Positions 2,358 through 45,191 of a stretch of 64,000 nucleotides of DNA are shown here, one piece after another. A program made the position numbers and the translations under genes. This DNA comes from Blastococcus sp. TF02A-30. GTDB lineage: Bacteria; Actinomycetota; Actinomycetes; Mycobacteriales; Geodermatophilaceae. The notes under the pieces were generated by a model that did not search any database, had not been told where the DNA came from, and worked only from the letters and a program-made list of their open reading frames with translations. The DNA is taken from positions 1-64,000 of the forward strand of contig NZ_QOHJ01000006.1 of the NCBI RefSeq assembly GCF_003319185.1, written 5' to 3'. Numbering within the stretch: the first letter of the stretch is position 1; every line of letters begins with the position of its first letter.

Positions 2358-2376
2358 GGGAACCTCCGGGTCATGT

Positions 2377-2433
2377 GGCCCCGTCCGGAGGCTCGCCCCG
2401 AGCCTGCGAGGGGTGAGGGGGACGGGGTCCTTC
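2377..2433 (-). repeat. Palindromic intergenic repeat, copy 1 (fabF-accD gap)
   Basis: Read on the minus strand it begins GAAGGACCCCGTC, has the core CTCGCAGGCTCG and ends GGACGGGGCC, so its ends pair with each other. It is a diverged copy of the 84-bp unit arrayed at 24729-25063. It lies just after the fabF stop and 20 bases before the accD start. A transcript hairpin here could modulate accD expression relative to fabF (inference). Confidence 0.75.
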
Positions 2434-2434
2434 G

Positions 2435-3676
2435 TCAGGCGGTGGTGAAGACCAGCGCGATGTTGTGGCCGCCGAACCCGAAGGAGTCGTTGACCGCGGC
2501 GGAGAACGTCGCCTTCCGCGGCTCGCGGCGGACGATGTCGAGGGCCTGGACGGCGGCGTCGTCGTCCGGGTCGTCGAGGTTCGCGGTGGCCGGCACGACC
2601 TGGTCGCGCAGCGCCAGGATCGTGAAGACCGACTCCAGGGCGCCGGCGGCGCCGAGCAGGTGGCCGGTCTGGCTCTTGGTGGCGGTGACCAGCACGTGCT
2701 CGCCGAGCGAGCCGCGGATGGCGGCGGCCTCGGCGGTGTCACCGACCGGCGTGGAGGTGGCGTGCGCGTTGACGTGGCCGATGTCGGTCGGCGTCAGCCC
2801 GGCGTCGCGGACCGCCGCGGCGATGGCCCGCCCGGCGCCCTCACCCTCGGGGTGCGGCGCGACCAGGTCGTAGCCGTCGGCGGTGGCGCCGGCGCCGGCG
2901 ACCCGGGCGTGGATCGTGGCGCCGCGGGCCTTCGCGGCGTCGGCGCGCTCGAGCACGAGGGCGGCGGCGCCCTCGCCGAGCACGAAGCCGTCGCGGGCCT
3001 TGTCGAACGGGCGGGAGGCGCGCTCGGGCTCGTCGTTGCGGGTGGACATGGCGCGCATGGCCGCGAACCCGGCCATCGGCAGCGGGTGCACGCAGGCCTC
3101 GGCGCCGCCGACGAGCACGACGTCGGCGCGGTCGAAGCGGATCAGGTCCAGGCCCCAGCGGATCGCCTCCGCGCCGGAGGCGCAGGCGCTCACCGGTGCG
3201 TGCACGCCACCCCGGGCGCCGATCGCCAGGCCCACCGCGGCGGCGGGGCCGTTGGGCATGAGCATCGGGATGGTGAAGGGGGAGACCCGCTTGGGGCCCT
3301 TCTGCTCCAGGACGTCGTCCTGGCCGAGCAGGGTCAGCGCGCCGCCGATGCCGGTGCCGAAGACGACGGCGATCCGCTCGGGGGCCACGCCGGAGCCCGC
3401 CGCGCCGGAGGAGGCCCAGGCCTGCTCGGCGGCGACGACGGCGACCTGCTGGCTGCGGTCCAGGCGCCGGGCGCGGACCCGGTCGATCTGCTCGGTGGGG
3501 TCGGCGGCCAGCCGGGCGACCAGCTGCGCCGGGTAGTCCGCGATCCAGTCGTCGGTGATCCGGCTGACCCCCGACCGGCCGGCCAGCAGCGCCTCCCAGG
3601 TGGAGTCGACGTCGCCACCGAGCGGGGTCGTGGCCCCGAGCCCGGTGACGACGACGTCAGCGGCGGACGTGCTCAT
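2435..3676 (-). CDS. fabF: 3-oxoacyl-ACP synthase II (KasA/FabF type)
   Basis: A 413-residue beta-ketoacyl-ACP synthase that condenses malonyl-ACP with acyl-ACP in each elongation round. The Cys-His-His triad is present: Cys165 in VSACASGAE, His near 305 in NAHATSTPVGD and His near 341 in QTGHLLGAAG. The ATG start is preceded by AGGAGG. It follows acpP and precedes accD. Mycobacteria have two such genes here (kasA, kasB); this operon has one, so it probably serves all elongation lengths. Family assignment is secure. The substrate range is not visible in the sequence. Confidence 0.95.
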   Translation of the reverse strand: MSTSAADVVVTGLGATTPLGGDVDSTWEALLAGRSGVSRITDDWIADYPAQLVARLAADPTEQIDRVRARRLDRSQQVAVVAAEQAWASSGAAGSGVAPERIAVVFGTGIGGALTLLGQDDVLEQKGPKRVSPFTIPMLMPNGPAAAVGLAIGARGGVHAPVSACASGAEAIRWGLDLIRFDRADVVLVGGAEACVHPLPMAGFAAMRAMSTRNDEPERASRPFDKARDGFVLGEGAAALVLERADAAKARGATIHARVAGAGATADGYDLVAPHPEGEGAGRAIAAAVRDAGLTPTDIGHVNAHATSTPVGDTAEAAAIRGSLGEHVLVTATKSQTGHLLGAAGALESVFTILALRDQVVPATANLDDPDDDAAVQALDIVRREPRKATFSAAVNDSFGFGGHNIALVFTTA

Positions 3677-3724
3677 GGAACTTCCTCCTGGGGATGCGGC
3701 CGGCCGGCCGGGGGTGGGCCCGAA

Positions 3725-3779
3725 GGCCCCGTGCAGGGCCCCACCGCGAGCCTGCGAGCGGTGGGGAGCAACGGGTCCT
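3725..3779 (-). repeat. Palindromic intergenic repeat, copy 2 (acpP-fabF gap)
   Basis: Read on the minus strand it runs from AGGACCCGTTG through CCACCGCTCGCAGGCTCGCG to GCACGGGGCC. The inner arms (CCCCACCGC and GCGGTGGGG) pair perfectly. It is the same family as the 24729-25063 array and starts directly behind the acpP stop, where a hairpin might stabilise the abundant acpP message or reduce read-through (inference). Confidence 0.75.
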
Positions 3780-3780
3780 C

Positions 3781-4023
3781 TTACTGGTTCTTCTCGATGT
3801 AGCTCATGGCGTCGCCGACGGTCTTGATGTTGGCGAGCTCGTCGTCCGGGATGGCGACGCCGAACTTGTCCTCGACGGCGGTGGCGATCTCGACCATCGA
3901 CAGCGAGTCGACGTCGAGGTCGTCGGTGAAGGACTTCTCCGGAGTGGCGTCGGCCGGGGTCACGCCGGCCACCTCCTCCAGGATCTCGGCAAGTCCGGCC
4001 TGGATCTCCTGGGTGCTAGCCAA
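3781..4023 (-). CDS. acpP: Acyl carrier protein
   Basis: An 80-residue acidic acyl carrier protein. Ser40 in LDVDSLSMVE is the expected phosphopantetheine site that holds the growing acyl chain. The frame is open far upstream as an antisense shadow of fabH, but the protein proper starts at the TTG at 4023 (LASTQEIQAGL), with AGAGAGG about ten bases ahead. Eighty residues is the normal bacterial length, without the long C-terminal tail of mycobacterial AcpM. Its operon place between fabH and fabF fits a FAS-II carrier. Confidence 0.93.
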   Translation of the reverse strand: MASTQEIQAGLAEILEEVAGVTPADATPEKSFTDDLDVDSLSMVEIATAVEDKFGVAIPDDELANIKTVGDAMSYIEKNQ

Positions 4024-13472: not shown

Positions 13473-13892
13473 ATGAGCGTCGACAGCACCGGCATGGCGG
13501 CCCGGCTGGGCATCAAGCCGGGCATGGTCGTGCAGGAGCTCGGCTGGGACGAGGACGTCGACGAGGACCTGCGCGACGCGATCGTCGACGCTGCCGGAAG
13601 CGACATGGTCGACGAGGACACCGACGAGGTGGCCGACGTCGTGATCCTCTGGTGGCGCGAGGACGACGGCGACCTGTTCGACGCCCTCACCGACGCCATC
13701 ACGTCGCTGGCGGATGAAGGTGTCGTCTGGCTGCTGGTCCCCAAGTCGGGTCGGCCGGGGCACGTCGAGCCCGGCGACGTCACCGAGGTGGCGCCGACGG
13801 CGGGTCTCTCGCAGACCAGCAGCATCTCCGCGGCCAAGGACTGGTCGGGCATCCGCCTGGTCTCGCCGAAGGCCGCCAAGAGCCGTCGCTGA
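13473..13892 (+). CDS. DUF3052 family protein
   Basis: A 139-residue acidic protein of the actinobacterial DUF3052 family, function unknown. It begins MSVDSTGMAARLGIKPGMVVQE, has an acidic central stretch (DEDVDEDLRDAIVD, DMVDEDTDEVADVV) and ends in a basic tail (SPKAAKSRR). No membrane segment or catalytic motif is recognised. GAGGAGCAGCAGGG lies ahead of the ATG. It is divergent from aceE and precedes ahpE, the same trio as Rv2241, Rv2239c and Rv2238c in M. tuberculosis. The conserved pairing with aceE suggests a role near pyruvate or acetyl-CoA metabolism, unproven. Confidence 0.88.
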   Translation: MSVDSTGMAARLGIKPGMVVQELGWDEDVDEDLRDAIVDAAGSDMVDEDTDEVADVVILWWREDDGDLFDALTDAITSLADEGVVWLLVPKSGRPGHVEPGDVTEVAPTAGLSQTSSISAAKDWSGIRLVSPKAAKSRR

Positions 13893-13900
13893 TCGAAGTC

Positions 13901-13957
13901 GAAGGACCCCGTCCTCCTCATCCCTCGCACGCTCGGGACGAGCCTCGGGACGGGGCC
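13901..13957 (+). repeat. Palindromic intergenic repeat, copy 3 (DUF3052-ahpE gap)
   Basis: GAAGGACCCCGTC at the left end pairs with GGACGGGGCC at the right; the middle contains CTCGCACGCTCGGG. It is a diverged relative of the 84-bp unit arrayed at 24729-25063. A short direct repeat follows (about 13958-14001: two versions of GGCCG-TTCCAGC-CACCTG). Confidence 0.7.
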
Positions 13958-14021
13958 GCTTCCAGCACGTCACCTGGGGGCCGTTCCAGCGCCTCACCTG
14001 CGGTGCGGCACGATCGGTGGC

Positions 14022-21857: not shown

Positions 21858-23825
21858 TCAGCGCTCCCCGGCGGCTCTCCGGCCGGGGGCGTTCTCCCGC
21901 ACCAGGCGGCGGGCGGTGTCCACCTCGCGGGCGACCGGGGCGAGCACGCCCTCGGCCAGCAGCTCCGCGTCGTCGTCCGCTGCCGATGCCCGCACGTCGT
22001 CCTCCAGCTGCCGGATCGCCCGCCGCAGGACGGCGACCTGCGCGAGGTCGGGGACCGGCTCGCCCTCGCGGGTCGCGATCACCGCCTCGGTGACGGCGTC
22101 CGCGGTCCGCTCCAGCTGCACGATGACCGGCCACCAGGCGGCCGCACGGGTGCTGATCGGCGGGGGCTCGGCGAGTCGGCGCTGCAGCTGGGTCTGCAGC
22201 TCGGTGAGCGCCCGGTAGGTGCGCCGGCGCGCCCGCCGGCGATCGGCCGAGCTGCCGGTGAACGCGGCCTCGACGAACCCGTCGAGGGCCACGGCGGCGT
22301 CGCGCAGCGCCTGGTCCAGCGGTGCCCGCCAGGTCTGCGGCCACAGCAGGTACCCGAAGACGAGCACGATGGCGCAGCCGATGAGGGTGTCGGTGAGCCG
22401 CTCCAGGACCAGGCTGGGGTCGTCGAGGGCCAGGTCGAGCATCAGCAGGATCACCGGGGTCTGGAAGACCGAGAACAGGCCGAAGTTGGCCGCCCGGGCC
22501 CACGGCAGCACGCCGGCGAAGACGGCGATGGCCAGGACGAGCCATCCGCTGCGGGGGAACGCGGCCAGCAGCGCCGAGCCGAGCAGCACCCCGAGCAGGG
22601 TGCCGGCGCCGCGCTGCACCGCCCGGCCGAACACCGATCCGAAGTCGGGCTTGAGCACGATCGCCACGGTGAGCAGCACCCAGTAGGGACGGTGCGTGGG
22701 CAGCCACTGGCGGGCCACCTCGGCGATGCTCATGCACAGCGTGAGGCGGAGGGCGAACGCCCGGCTGTCGGCGCTGGCCAGCGTGCGGTCGACCAGCTCG
22801 CGCGCGCGGGCCCGGCGGTCGAGCGCAGGGCTCGGGGCGGCGGCCCCCGCCCGTTCCTCGGGGTCGCCGACGACGTTCCACACCAGCCGGACGCCGTGCC
22901 GCACGGCCCGTCGGACGGGCAGCCCCTCCTCGACCGGTGCCGGGCGCTCGCCGGGCAGCTCCCGGTCGCCGGTGAGCGCCGCCGCGAGGTCCCGCGCGGC
23001 CGCGACGTCCACCGGATCGGCCGGCACCCGTGCGCGGGCGGCGGCCACCGAGGCCTCGACGAGCGGAGCGGCGGAGTTGAGCACCCCGGCCAGCTCGGAG
23101 AGCTCGCGCACCCGCCCGGCCATGTGGCTGCGGCTGCGGATCACCCGGTCGTAGGCGGCGTTCAGCGCGGTGGTCAGCGCACGCCGGGCGTCGTCGGCGT
23201 CCTCGGGGCGGCCGGCCTCCAGCAGGTCGGCGATCCGGGAGAAGACGGCGGCGACGGCGGTGCGGTCGGGATCCGCGGCCTCGGTCGCCGTCTGGACGAG
23301 GGTGAGCGCGGTCGCCCACGCGGCGCCCACGAGGAAGCAGCCGATCTCCTCGTACCAGGACAGCGACGACGCGAAGCCCGACGCCAGCGCGGTGTAGACC
23401 AGCAGCTGCAGCGAGGCCAGCGACATCGTGGCGTTCACCTGGCTGATCAGCGCCGCGGCCGCGGAGATCAGCGCGATGACCAGCACCGGCGCCCACCCGC
23501 CGCCCTCGGCGAACCCGCCGACGACCAGCCCGAGCACGCCGAACGCCGTCGCCGCGGTGGTCCGCCGCAGCTTGTCGCGCAGCGGCCCCGCCTGCGGGGC
23601 GAGGGTGGCGACGAGGGCGCCCATCGTCGCGAAGACACCGGCGCTCAGGGCCGCCCCGGGCCGCACGCCACCGGTCGCCGCCACGGTCACCGCCAGCGGT
23701 GCGGGGATGGCGACGGCGAAGCGGGCGACGTCCCGCCAGGGCACCGGCGGCCGGTTGGTGCGCACCAGCTCCTCGAGCCAGGCCGGCGCGTGCAGGCTCC
23801 TGCTCCTGCCGCCCGCGCCGCTCAC
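21858..23825 (-). CDS. FUSC-family membrane transporter
   Basis: A 655-residue membrane protein with two bundles of about six helices each (residues 35-190 and 365-510) separated and followed by long cytoplasmic helical regions. This is the layout of the fusaric-acid-resistance/aromatic-acid-exporter (FUSC, AaeB-like) family. The second bundle carries the family motif LKPDFGSVFGRAVQRGAGTLLG. Members export aromatic acids, but no membrane-fusion partner is encoded beside it, as expected for a Gram-positive. The GTG start at 23825 is divergent from the nif3-like gene 71 bp away. The exported compound is unknown. Confidence 0.85.
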   Translation of the reverse strand: MSGAGGRSRSLHAPAWLEELVRTNRPPVPWRDVARFAVAIPAPLAVTVAATGGVRPGAALSAGVFATMGALVATLAPQAGPLRDKLRRTTAATAFGVLGLVVGGFAEGGGWAPVLVIALISAAAALISQVNATMSLASLQLLVYTALASGFASSLSWYEEIGCFLVGAAWATALTLVQTATEAADPDRTAVAAVFSRIADLLEAGRPEDADDARRALTTALNAAYDRVIRSRSHMAGRVRELSELAGVLNSAAPLVEASVAAARARVPADPVDVAAARDLAAALTGDRELPGERPAPVEEGLPVRRAVRHGVRLVWNVVGDPEERAGAAAPSPALDRRARARELVDRTLASADSRAFALRLTLCMSIAEVARQWLPTHRPYWVLLTVAIVLKPDFGSVFGRAVQRGAGTLLGVLLGSALLAAFPRSGWLVLAIAVFAGVLPWARAANFGLFSVFQTPVILLMLDLALDDPSLVLERLTDTLIGCAIVLVFGYLLWPQTWRAPLDQALRDAAVALDGFVEAAFTGSSADRRRARRRTYRALTELQTQLQRRLAEPPPISTRAAAWWPVIVQLERTADAVTEAVIATREGEPVPDLAQVAVLRRAIRQLEDDVRASAADDDAELLAEGVLAPVAREVDTARRLVRENAPGRRAAGER

Positions 23826-23896
23826 GCCCGAAGCTTGTCACCGACCGCCCGGCCTCCGCCGGAGGGCGGGGCGGGTGCTCCGTTACGGTCCGAGCC

Positions 23897-24736
23897 GTGA
23901 CCGTGCTGCTCGGCGAGGTGCTCGCGGCCCTCGAGGCCCGCTACGACCCGGCGCTGGCCGAGGGCTGGGACGCCGTCGGGCTGGTGTGCGGGGACCCGGC
24001 CGAACCGGTGCGCCGCGTGCTGTTCGCCGTCGACCCCACGACCGCCGTCGTCGACGAGGTGCTGGAGACAGGGGCGGACCTGCTGGTCACCCACCACCCG
24101 CTGCTGCTCAGCCCGGTGCACGGCGTGCCCGCCGACGACCCGAAGGGGCGCGTGGTGCACCGGCTGGTCCGCGCGGGTGCGGCGCTGTTCGTGGCGCACA
24201 CGAACGCCGACCGCGCGCCCGACGTCGGGGTGAACGCGGCGCTCGCCGGCGTCCTCGGGCTCGTCGGAGCCGTGCCGCTCGAGCCGGTGCCCACGGATCC
24301 GCGCGCCGGCCTGGGCCGGATCGGCGAGCTGCCGCAGCCGGTCTCCCTGCGCGGCTTCGCCGACCTGGTCGCGCGGGCGCTGCCGGCCACCGCCGGCGGG
24401 GTCCGGATCGCCGGCGACCCGGACCGGGAGGTGCGGCGCGTCGCGGTGTGCGGCGGCAGCGGCGGCTCGGTGCTCCCCGCCGCGGCCGCCGCCGGGGCCG
24501 ACGTGCTGCTGACCAGCGACCTCAAGCACCACCCGGTGTCCGACGCGCTGGAGGTGCCGGGCCCGGCGCTCTGCGACGTCGCGCACTGGGCCAGCGAGTG
24601 GCCGTGGCTGCCGGTGGCCGCGCGCACCCTGCGGGCGGACCTGGGGGAGCGGGTGGAGGTGGCCGTCTCCACCGTCCGCACCGATCCCTGGACGCACGCC
24701 ACCGGACCGCTCGGGGACGGCGCACCAGCCGGGTAG
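23897..24736 (+). CDS. Nif3-like dinuclear metal centre protein (DUF34)
   Basis: A 279-residue protein of the Nif3/YbgI (DUF34) family. The metal ligands are recognisable: LVTHHPLLL near residue 65, VAHTNADRAPDVG near 98 and the C-terminal half with VLLTSDLKHHPVSDA and CDVAHWASEW. Members form hexameric rings with two metals per subunit. A role as GTP cyclohydrolase I-like or as a metallochaperone has been proposed but is not settled. It is the short form, without the inserted PII-like domain. It begins the trio nif3-like, zinc-ribbon, RNase H conserved as Rv2230c-Rv2228c. Confidence 0.9.
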   Translation: MTVLLGEVLAALEARYDPALAEGWDAVGLVCGDPAEPVRRVLFAVDPTTAVVDEVLETGADLLVTHHPLLLSPVHGVPADDPKGRVVHRLVRAGAALFVAHTNADRAPDVGVNAALAGVLGLVGAVPLEPVPTDPRAGLGRIGELPQPVSLRGFADLVARALPATAGGVRIAGDPDREVRRVAVCGGSGGSVLPAAAAAGADVLLTSDLKHHPVSDALEVPGPALCDVAHWASEWPWLPVAARTLRADLGERVEVAVSTVRTDPWTHATGPLGDGAPAG

Positions 24737-25063
24737 TCGAAGGACCCCCGTGCCCCCCACCGCTCGCACGCTCGCGGCGGGCCCTGCACGGGGGCCGACC
24801 CACCGGACCTCCCGGGTAGTTGAAGGACCCCCGTGCCCCCCACCGCTCGCACGCTCGCGGCGGGGCCCTGCACGGGGGCCGACCCACCGGACCTCCCGGG
24901 TAGTCGAAGCACCCCCGTGCCCCCCACCGCTCGCACGCTCGCGGCGGGGCCCTGCACGGGGGCCGACCCACCGGACCTCCCGGGTAGTCGAAGGACCCCC
25001 GTGCCCCCCACCGCTCGCACGCTCGCGGCGGGGCCCTGCACGGGGGCCGACCCACCGGACCTC
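24729..25063 (+). repeat. Four tandem copies of an 84-bp palindromic repeat
   Basis: Copies lie at 24729-24811 (83 bp, one G short), 24812-24895, 24896-24979 and 24980-25063, followed by a 9-bp partial copy. They are almost identical: one T for C at the GTAGT(T/C)GA position of copy 2, and C for G in GAAG(C)A of copy 3. Each unit folds on itself: CCCCCGTGC pairs with GCACGGGGG outside, and CCCCACCGC with GCGGCGGGG inside. The array starts inside the nif3-like stop region (TAG at 24734-24736 is part of copy 1) and ends 18 bp before the next start. Single diverged copies occur at 2377, 3725, 13901 and 45095. Confidence 0.95.
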
Positions 25064-25080
25064 CCGGGTAGGTTCTTCCC

Positions 25081-25821
25081 GTGAAGGTCGACCACTTCGA
25101 GCAGCAGAAGCTCCTGGACCTCGCGGCGGAAGACGTCGCGCTGACCCAGCTGGCCCATCGCCGGAAGAACCTGCCGGAGGCCGCCGCGGTCGAGAGCGCC
25201 GAAGAGGCCGAGCGGGCGCTGGCCGGCGACGTGGTGCGGGCCGAGACCGAGGTCCGCGACCTCGAGCGCGACGTCAAGCGGCTCGAAGGCGACGTCGACA
25301 CCGTCCGCCAGCGGGCCGCCCGCGACCAGCAGCGCCTCGACGCCGGCGGGGTCAGCGCCCGGGAGACCACGAGCCTGCAGCTGGAGCTGGAGTCGCTGGG
25401 CCGCCGGCAGGCCGACCTGGAGGACCAGGAGCTCGAGCTCATGGAGCGGCTGGAGACGGCCGAGAAGGCGCTCGCCGCGGCGCGCGAGGGGCACGAGAAG
25501 GCCCGCGCGGAGCTGGAGCGGGCCACGCAGCTGCGCGACGACGCGCTGGCCGACATCGCCGACGGCACCAGCCGGCACGAGGCCGCCCGCGCGGCGGTGG
25601 CCGGCGGCATCTCCGCTCCGTTGCTGTCGCTGTACGACCGCATCCGCACCCAGACCGGCACCACCGGCGCCGCCATGCTCAAGGCCCGCCAGTGCCAGGG
25701 CTGCCGCATCGAGCTGTACGGCAACGAGCTGAACGCCGTCCGCAACGCCGATCCGCACGAGGTCGTCCGCTGCGAGAACTGCGGCCGGATCCTGGTGCGC
25801 ACCGCCGAGTCGGGGCTGTGA
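25081..25821 (+). CDS. Coiled-coil C4-type zinc-ribbon protein
   Basis: A 246-residue protein: a long helical coiled coil over residues 5-190 (repeated ERD, LEREVKRLE-like heptads) and a C-terminal zinc ribbon with CQGC near 205 and CENC near 231. It belongs to the zf-RING_7/CdsZ family (Rv2229c). Related proteins have been linked to RNA or nucleic-acid handling, and the neighbours here include RNase H. The GTG start at 25081 lies directly after the repeat array, so its leader may begin within the array. The next gene follows after 79 bp containing a second kind of repeat. Confidence 0.9.
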   Translation: MKVDHFEQQKLLDLAAEDVALTQLAHRRKNLPEAAAVESAEEAERALAGDVVRAETEVRDLERDVKRLEGDVDTVRQRAARDQQRLDAGGVSARETTSLQLELESLGRRQADLEDQELELMERLETAEKALAAAREGHEKARAELERATQLRDDALADIADGTSRHEAARAAVAGGISAPLLSLYDRIRTQTGTTGAAMLKARQCQGCRIELYGNELNAVRNADPHEVVRCENCGRILVRTAESGL

Positions 25822-35063: not shown

Positions 35064-35357
35064 ATGGGGCAGCAGCTGCGAGGGCGGGCGCTGAGCAGGC
35101 GGGACCGGCCGGTCGTGGTGGCGCGGCCGCTGGACGTCCGCGCGGTGGCCGTCCGCTCGCTGGCGGTGGGCGCGGCCTCGGCCGCCGGGCTGGCGGTCGG
35201 TGCGCTCGCCGTCGGTGCGCTGGCGGTCGGTGCGCTGGCGGTGGGCCGGCTGGTCATCGGCCGCGCCGACATCCGCGACCTGCGCGTCGGCCGGCTGGAG
35301 GTCGGCGAGCTCGTCGTGACGAGCCGGCCGACCGCTTCCCCGGACGGCGTCGGCTGA
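35064..35357 (+). CDS. Small pentad-repeat protein
   Basis: A 97-residue protein. Residues 32-87 are built of consecutive five-residue units of the form x-L-x-V-G: GLAVG, ALAVG (three times), RLVIG, RADIR, DLRVG, RLEVG, ELVVT. This regular spacing resembles pentapeptide-repeat proteins, which form a square beta-helix, though the hydrophobic ALAVG units could also insert in a membrane. The N-terminus is basic. The ATG has GGAGGAG nine bases upstream. The function is unknown. It appears to form an operon with the ABM-like gene. Confidence 0.7.
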   Translation: MGQQLRGRALSRRDRPVVVARPLDVRAVAVRSLAVGAASAAGLAVGALAVGALAVGALAVGRLVIGRADIRDLRVGRLEVGELVVTSRPTASPDGVG

Positions 35358-44397: not shown

Positions 44398-45093
44398 GTG
44401 ACCGAGGGTCGTGCGGTGGAGGAGCTGGTCGTCGGTGTCCTGGGGGGCACCGGACCGCAGGGGCGCGGGCTCGCCGTCCGCCTGGCCGCAGCGGGTCAGC
44501 GCATCCTCCTGGGCTCCCGCGACGCCGACCGCGCGGCCGAGGTGGCCGCCGAGGTCGCCACCCGTGCCAGCGCCGCGGCCGGCGGGGTCGAGGTGTCGGT
44601 GCAGGGCGGCTCGAACGCCGACGTGGCCGGGGCCGCCGACCTGGTGATCGTCGCCGTCCCGTACGCCGGGCACGCGGAGCTGCTGGCCGAGCTGGCCACC
44701 CCGCTGGCCGGCAAGATCGTGGTCGACTGCGTCGTCCCCATGGGCTTCGACGAGCTGGGCGCCTACGTTCTCGACGTCCCGGAGGGGAGCGCGACGCAGC
44801 AGGCGGCCGCGCTGCTGCCCGACTCGCACGTCGTCGGTGCGTTCCACCACCTGTCGGCCCGGCTGCTCGAGGACCTCTCGCACCCCACCATCGACGGCGA
44901 CGTCATGGTGGTCGGCGACGACCGCGCGTCGATGGACACCGTGCAGGCCCTCGCCGGGCGGCTGCCCGGCATGCGCGGCATCTACTCCGGCCGGCTGCGC
45001 AACGCCCGCCAGGTCGAGGCGCTGACGATCAACCTCGTGTCGGTCAACCGCCGCTACAAGGTGCACGCCGGGATCCGCGTCACCGACGTCTGA
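44398..45093 (+). CDS. npdG: NADPH-dependent F420 reductase
   Basis: A 231-residue reductase that exchanges hydride between NADPH and cofactor F420, keeping F420H2 available for nitro- or enoyl-reducing enzymes. The Rossmann motif VVGVLGGTGPQGRGLAVRLA lies near residue 11. GSRDADRA binds the NADPH phosphate. VIVAVPYAG, GAFHHLSARLL and the C-terminal INLVSVNRRYKVHAGIRVT are typical. The GTG has GGAGGGGG upstream. Its presence implies that the organism makes F420. Confidence 0.92.
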   Translation: MTEGRAVEELVVGVLGGTGPQGRGLAVRLAAAGQRILLGSRDADRAAEVAAEVATRASAAAGGVEVSVQGGSNADVAGAADLVIVAVPYAGHAELLAELATPLAGKIVVDCVVPMGFDELGAYVLDVPEGSATQQAAALLPDSHVVGAFHHLSARLLEDLSHPTIDGDVMVVGDDRASMDTVQALAGRLPGMRGIYSGRLRNARQVEALTINLVSVNRRYKVHAGIRVTDV

Positions 45094-45094
45094 C

Positions 45095-45150
45095 GGAGGA
45101 CCTCGCGCCCCTGCTCGCACGCTCGCGGCCGACCCCTGCACGAGCAGCCG
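45095..45150 (+). repeat. Palindromic intergenic repeat, diverged copy
   Basis: GGAGGACC, CTGCTCGCACGCTCGCGG and CCCCTGCACGAGCAG keep the core and right end of the 84-bp repeat, but the left arm has changed. CTGCTCG pairs with CGAGCAG. It follows the F420 reductase gene. Confidence 0.6.
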
Positions 45151-45191
45151 TCGGGCACGGCGTGGGTTGACCGCCGCGTCAGACTGAGGTC

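Follow-up and report, generated by a model that had tools for sequence, protein, structure and literature searches.

An apparently mobile, family-wide hairpin element and its tandem array between a nif3-like and a zinc-ribbon gene in Blastococcus sp. TF02A-30

The four tandem units between the nif3-like gene and the zinc-ribbon gene of Blastococcus sp. TF02A-30 are copies of a real, family-wide and apparently mobile hairpin element, and the array itself is apparently a local amplification of this element. The window analysed here, the whole stretch of 64,000 nucleotides, holds four more matches to a covariance model of the element, and the copies are tied to stop codons; this dispersed nature was overlooked in the first-pass annotation. 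We consider it likely that each unit is a copy of a non-autonomous, REP/MITE-like mobile hairpin with MIRU-like placement, that the array arose by local duplication and that most copies are passengers. The features of the window are as follows.

2362..2442, − strand: dispersed element copy (60.2 bits)
3711..3790, − strand: dispersed element copy (64.3 bits)
13892..13973, + strand: dispersed element copy (69.6 bits)
23699..24736, + strand: nif3-like (DUF34/NIF3) ORF upstream of the array (Pfam PF01784, E 1.4e-69, on 23912-24733)
24729..24811, + strand: unit 1 (83 bp), hairpin about 24742-24796 (model match 24730-24811, 76.7 bits)
24812..24895, + strand: unit 2 (84 bp), hairpin about 24825-24880 (model match 24813-24895, 86.4 bits)
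24896..24979, + strand: unit 3 (84 bp), hairpin about 24909-24964 (model match 24897-24979, 74.2 bits)
24980..25063, + strand: unit 4 (84 bp), hairpin about 24993-25048 (model match 24981-25063, 83.1 bits)
25064..25071, + strand: fifth CCGGGTAG, the direct repeat closing the array
25069..25074, + strand: TAGGTT, likely −10 box of a putative leaderless zinc-ribbon transcript
25081..25821, + strand: zinc-ribbon gene downstream, CT398-like coiled coil and C4 zinc ribbon (PF24481, PF02591)
45086..45163, + strand: dispersed element copy, weak (33.7 bits)

The array and the distribution of its unit

The array extends over 24729-25071 as delimited by Tandem Repeats Finder (period 84, 4.1 copies, 98% matches). 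Its joints are formed by CCGGGTAG, which recurs at 24729, 24812, 24896, 24980 and 25064 and divides 24729-25063 into units of 83, 84, 84 and 84 bp. With unit 4 as the reference, unit 1 lacks one G and units 2 and 3 carry one substitution each. The first-pass annotation had described four 84-bp palindromes in tandem; the array is confirmed, but the folded part covers only some 56 of the 84 bp, the hairpin is imperfect and unit 1 is one base shorter. The proposal that the duplication was local and recent is supported. The nif3 ORF stops at the TAG at 24734-24736, which abuts unit 1, and the zinc-ribbon ORF starts at the GTG at 25081. A TANNNT box is found 5-9 nt 5' of this GTG in all 58 relatives, from which we infer that the zinc-ribbon transcript is leaderless. 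In the window, TAG is present on both sides of each element at this site. A separate GC-rich tandem repeat with units of 15-30 bp occupies positions 35128-35253 of the window.

The named relatives put the window closest to Blastococcus. In 16 of 58 relatives, the covariance model places an element just 5' of the zinc-ribbon gene (a count in which L050 offers only 121 bases upstream). In six of the 58 (L056, L066, L080, L081, L106 and L111) it is the TAG of TAGGTT that terminates the nif3 ORF, and in these the model detected no element upstream of the zinc-ribbon gene. Tandem forms are present at the locus in L104 (2.5 copies, period 85) and in L079, where two model matches flank an assembly gap; Tandem Repeats Finder did not report L079, nor did it report an 84-bp array in L091. 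An element within an element, the outer one partly lost, was recognized by eye in L061, L068, L074, L099 and L100. The copy number of the array had been predicted to vary between strains; variation between species, the level that these loci cover, is supported.

It is highly improbable that the array or the family is an assembly artefact or a chance palindrome. The genome is a draft in 38 contigs, and an assembly gap falls at the same locus in L079, both of which would suit such an explanation. A simple artefact is nevertheless argued against by the private differences in three of the four units and by the tandem forms in L104 and L079, and copies of the element occur in many independent assemblies, including genomes listed with one contig such as G002, G022 and G037.

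When the unit was searched as DNA against all 4.13 Mb of the genome, 43 matches were returned, comprising the four in the array and, as the first-pass annotation had suggested looking for, 39 elsewhere (E ≤ 5e-5). The covariance model, for which 27 copies were selected (one array unit and 26 of the 39 dispersed copies), gave 86 matches at E up to 0.1 from 150 candidates scored, two of the 86 being below 25 bits. With the same model at E up to 0.001, the element was found in 47 of 57 sampled Geodermatophilaceae genomes, and the unit is not confined to one genome; approximately 80 candidates were scored per genome, so that counts near 80 are lower bounds. The ten genomes without a match include G019, which is listed as 100% complete, and several that are fragmented or incomplete. 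Counts are low in G039 (four matches) and G003 (five). In a sample of the order 20 of 150 genomes match, 18 of them from the family itself. The stray strong matches in other families of the order, in G109 (contig C17:90-172, at the start of L264) and G118, may represent contamination or transfer. In a sample of the phylum the matches were confined to two of 296 genomes, namely the Blastococcus genome itself and G196 (one hit, 41 bits). Phage records and plasmid records gave no match to the element, and neither did a single exact-pattern scan of viral contigs. A BLAST hit in L014 at position 640 was dropped as unrelated. A literature search of titles and abstract openings, with little subscription content, returned no description of such an element for the Geodermatophilaceae.

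Placement at stop codons

Placement was assessed in 82 copies, these being the 84 hits above 33 bits less one without a fetched locus and one without a recognisable foot. Genes were called with a custom codon-usage scorer trained on the same genome, so single boundaries may err. In 59 of the 82 copies the stop codon of a gene on the element's own strand ends between −2 and +4 nt from the AGG of the foot, compared with approximately 3.6% expected for random intergenic placement. The stop-to-foot distance has peaks at 3 nt (28 copies), 1 nt (11) and 0 nt (8), and the stops beside the copies are TGA in 46 cases, TAG in nine and TAA in six. The flanks of the model were learned from copies that often follow TGA, which may bias it towards such copies; despite this possible bias, a search with the array unit itself, which has a TAG flank, recovers the same neighbours. 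In a second set drawn from three other genomes the rule holds in 18 of 22 copies against an expectation of 3.7%, although these are not 22 independent events because some are orthologous or nested.

The remaining 23 of the 82 copies lie away from a sense stop. Three are the extra units of the array, about nine are (by eye) beside a TAG or CTA in the apparent −10 box of a divergent gene, and a few are inside reading frames or follow no clear rule. A fixed GTAG or TA target was rejected, TGA being dominant among the stops. A stop-like triplet as the sole target was likewise rejected: the intergenic DNA of the window contains 131 such triplets against 64 gene ends, and a real gene stop is present in 58 of the 73 copies that have a stop-like triplet at −1 to +4, 59 of 73 being the count used in the corresponding test.

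By gene context, 43 copies are co-directional, or 40 once the extra units of the array are set aside, and 18 are convergent. The gene pairs of the window itself number 39 co-directional and 12 convergent, corresponding to 39 and 24 stops, and the ratio of 40 to 18 therefore indicates no preference for convergent pairs. Of the 18 convergent copies, 11 have their end no more than 14 nt from the stop of the second gene. In three loci (L012, L135 and L139) an ATGA or GTGA start-stop overlap precedes the element, which can be translated as a leader to the following gene; in L012 this gene is a glycosyltransferase. The element lies in frame within a predicted gene in L019, and the peptides encoded by in-frame elements are alike, each containing a form of PHxSxAR or PQTSQAR.

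Hairpin structure and alleles among relatives

The element spans approximately 60-75 bp. Its foot, GAAGGACC, leads into a two-part hairpin that contains a bulge and has a CTCGCANGCTCG-type tip; GGCC comes next, followed in some copies by a GTTCCAGCACGTCAC-like tail. In the 27-copy alignment, standard pairs make up 93% of the pair cells and changes on both sides occur at ten pairs. None of 500 shuffles attains any of five covariation measures, and the signal is lost when the partner columns are slid. Alignment of 83 distinct copies from the genome, fitted to a covariance model that favours pairing generally, gave 1516 Watson-Crick, 15 G-T, 34 A-C and 42 other pair cells. Pair 39-54, which is perhaps not a true pair, accounts for 11 of the 34 A-C cells, and its exclusion leaves 15 G-T and 23 A-C. 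If the helix were selected as RNA, G-T pairs would be expected to outnumber A-C pairs on the element strand; this is not seen, which leans against a primary RNA role. The unpaired A of GG-A-CC and the hairpin tip are well conserved, which suggests that the structure has a specific reader. The unit had also been expected to form a strong RNA hairpin. A hairpin does exist, but as RNA the array unit folds just 1.4-1.6 SD below shuffles, so RNA stability alone proves little. Rfam 15 returned no match to the array at E up to 1 and, for 11 copy-bearing loci, only two tRNAs at the gathering score, neither of them at the element.

Filled and empty sites were compared behind two conserved genes, with 30 loci of 56 matched genomes inspected for each. 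A model match lies beside the native stop in six of 30 DNA polymerase I loci and in 11 of 30 ABC-F loci, and is absent from the others. The matches at these stops include weak ones in L181 (26 bits) and L215 (23 bits), and L180 has an additional hit away from the native stop. Among the counted matches, those in L168 and L206 are reversed behind the polymerase or ABC-F gene, the L168 copy seemingly following the stop of a convergent gene. By eye, another GC-rich hairpin is visible downstream of the ABC-F gene in many loci, both without the element and, where one is present, behind it, and apparent relics of the element are found at the ABC-F gene in L198, L205 and L217. Some empty alleles may be relics of lost elements, and the presence of an element at the same stop in several species may reflect shared descent and loss.

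Closer comparisons were available between G006, G017 and G032, in which most compared flanks are 93-99% identical and a few 84-92%. At one stop the element-free allele has TGA and the element-bearing allele TAA; at another, two genomes carry different elements (with TGA and TAG), and a promoter-side copy occupies the place of 56 unrelated bases in the others. No consistent target duplication was found across the compared alleles, several of which look like replacement of neighbouring bases and not clean insertion. Such alleles are unlike simple cut-and-paste with a clean target duplication. They count against the simplest mobile reading and suggest that recombination has a share, so that it or gene conversion could contribute to the element alleles.

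Origin of the copies and comparison with known systems

On the mobile-hairpin reading that we favour, the element has settled mostly at gene ends on the sense strand, its foot lying within the stop codon or directly behind it. A stop is preserved, either because the native codon is retained or because a GA or AA end of the element completes a T or TA. In several empty relatives the TAG appears to do double duty, ending nif3 and opening the −10 box. Growth of the array was probably due to duplication between the flanking CCGGGTAG direct repeats, the putative substrate through which slippage or unequal exchange may have expanded one element into four units. A putative enzyme probably recognises the hairpin in single-stranded DNA. 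The majority of copies would be near-harmless passengers whose influence on transcript ends, if any, would be secondary. The data establish the dispersal, the structure, the anchoring at stops, the nesting and the differences in presence between relatives; transposition as the underlying process and the lack of a primary host function are inferred.

No Y1 transposase (Y1_Tnp, PF01797) was found in the genome or in any of the 57 family genomes, whereas five of 14 control genomes were positive, and the element is thus not a standard REP. Reverse transcriptase was found in eight of 15 chosen genomes and was not found in the Blastococcus genome or in the copy-rich G020, G028 and G049, which indicates that it is not a required partner. 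The search for an IS91-type Y2_Tnp (none in 15 genomes) is uninformative, as its controls gave no signal.

The first-pass annotation proposed that the array could act as a terminator, a transcript-stability element or a protein-binding site. Extended to the family, the first two of these possible roles would make the copies chiefly terminators or mRNA 3'-end stability hairpins kept after stops by selection on RNA, their spread being incidental. The sense-strand location directly after stops, the covariation and the closeness of the element to the second stop in most convergent cases would all suit such a role. The rest of the data lean against it, however: G-T does not exceed A-C on the element strand, a second hairpin is present at the ABC-F gene with or without the element, convergent pairs are not preferred, some copies sit beside divergent promoters or within reading frames, the folding energy is only 1.4-1.6 SD below that of shuffles and the genome G019, judged 100% complete, has no match. 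We therefore regard a primary RNA role as unlikely; a terminator role is possible but seemingly secondary. Copying by recombination and not by dedicated transposition, in the form of gene conversion, template switching at hairpins or horizontal exchange of 3' ends, would account for the replacement-like alleles, the nesting with loss of the outer loop, the partial tandem duplications, the presence in close relatives of different elements at a shared stop and the failure to find a transposase. Recombination alone leaves unexplained how new copies came to the stops of unrelated genes and why the bulge and tip are conserved, and as the sole process it seems to us quite improbable.

A bolder form of the mobile hairpin reading is put forward tentatively, as we think it rather doubtful. 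The system might find TGA, TAG or TAA as such, in sense orientation, and remake the stop at the junction, and would then be previously undescribed. It might employ a putative hairpin-specific recombinase, or insertion might be coupled to translation termination or to transcript ends. Were this so, the element would have near-harmless landing sites within a gene-dense genome.

Integron attC sites are bulged hairpins that lie after stop codons and are read as single-stranded DNA. The element is likewise a bulged hairpin after stops, but its copies follow ordinary chromosomal genes and not cassettes, and the attC core motifs are not apparent. MITEs are recognised by the terminal inverted repeats of a parent insertion sequence together with a target site duplication. 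The ends of the element are roughly complementary, and GGTAG or a longer sequence is present on both sides at the zinc-ribbon locus only, with no consistent duplication elsewhere. MIRUs have the target DTGA, and a covarying hairpin is not known as a MIRU trait. MIRUs are described as inserting at start codons or start-stop overlaps, with the repeat ORF joined to the downstream gene (PMC12548453). The element resembles MIRUs as described there in being interspersed and apparently mobile, in having tandem variants and in occupying start-stop overlaps in three loci, but differs in that most of its copies follow the stops of complete genes without such an overlap.

For REPs, PMC3733652 states that the conv-REPs are mostly situated <20 bp from 3' ends, that the ends of GTAG REPs frequently supply a TAG stop codon, that some REPs are in frame inside genes and that CGTC REPs are said to have no transposase; the terms Actinobacteria, Blastococcus, Geodermatophilus and Frankia are absent from its main text. 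Like REPs, the element has many short palindromic copies, mostly extragenic and near 3' ends. Its hairpin is longer and bulged, however, its foot has no fixed GTAG or CGTC tag (CGTC does occur in the tail of some copies, approximately 9 nt from the stem and not at the foot), it uses all three stops with TGA predominating, and the RAYT/Y1 transposase of GTAG REPs is missing from the 57 genomes. The element behaves like a REP or MIRU yet differs from REPs in both tag and transposase. Rickettsia palindromic elements, which are named in PMC3733652, are comparable in that the palindrome can be read in frame inside a gene, as in L019, but in-gene copies of the present element are few and most are at stops.

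A family-wide, high-copy repeat placed by stops within a few bases would represent a sharper safe-site strategy than the <20 bp given for REPs in PMC3733652. The mover, if found, may be a new hairpin-reading enzyme, and the close species with filled and empty alleles make the question of the mover testable. Arrays of this kind may also be mistaken for small genes or for CRISPRs; one survey lists 0-7 questionable CRISPRs per Geodermatophilaceae genome (PMC9686282), and a link between the two would be a guess. Such arrays may, in addition, serve as typing markers.
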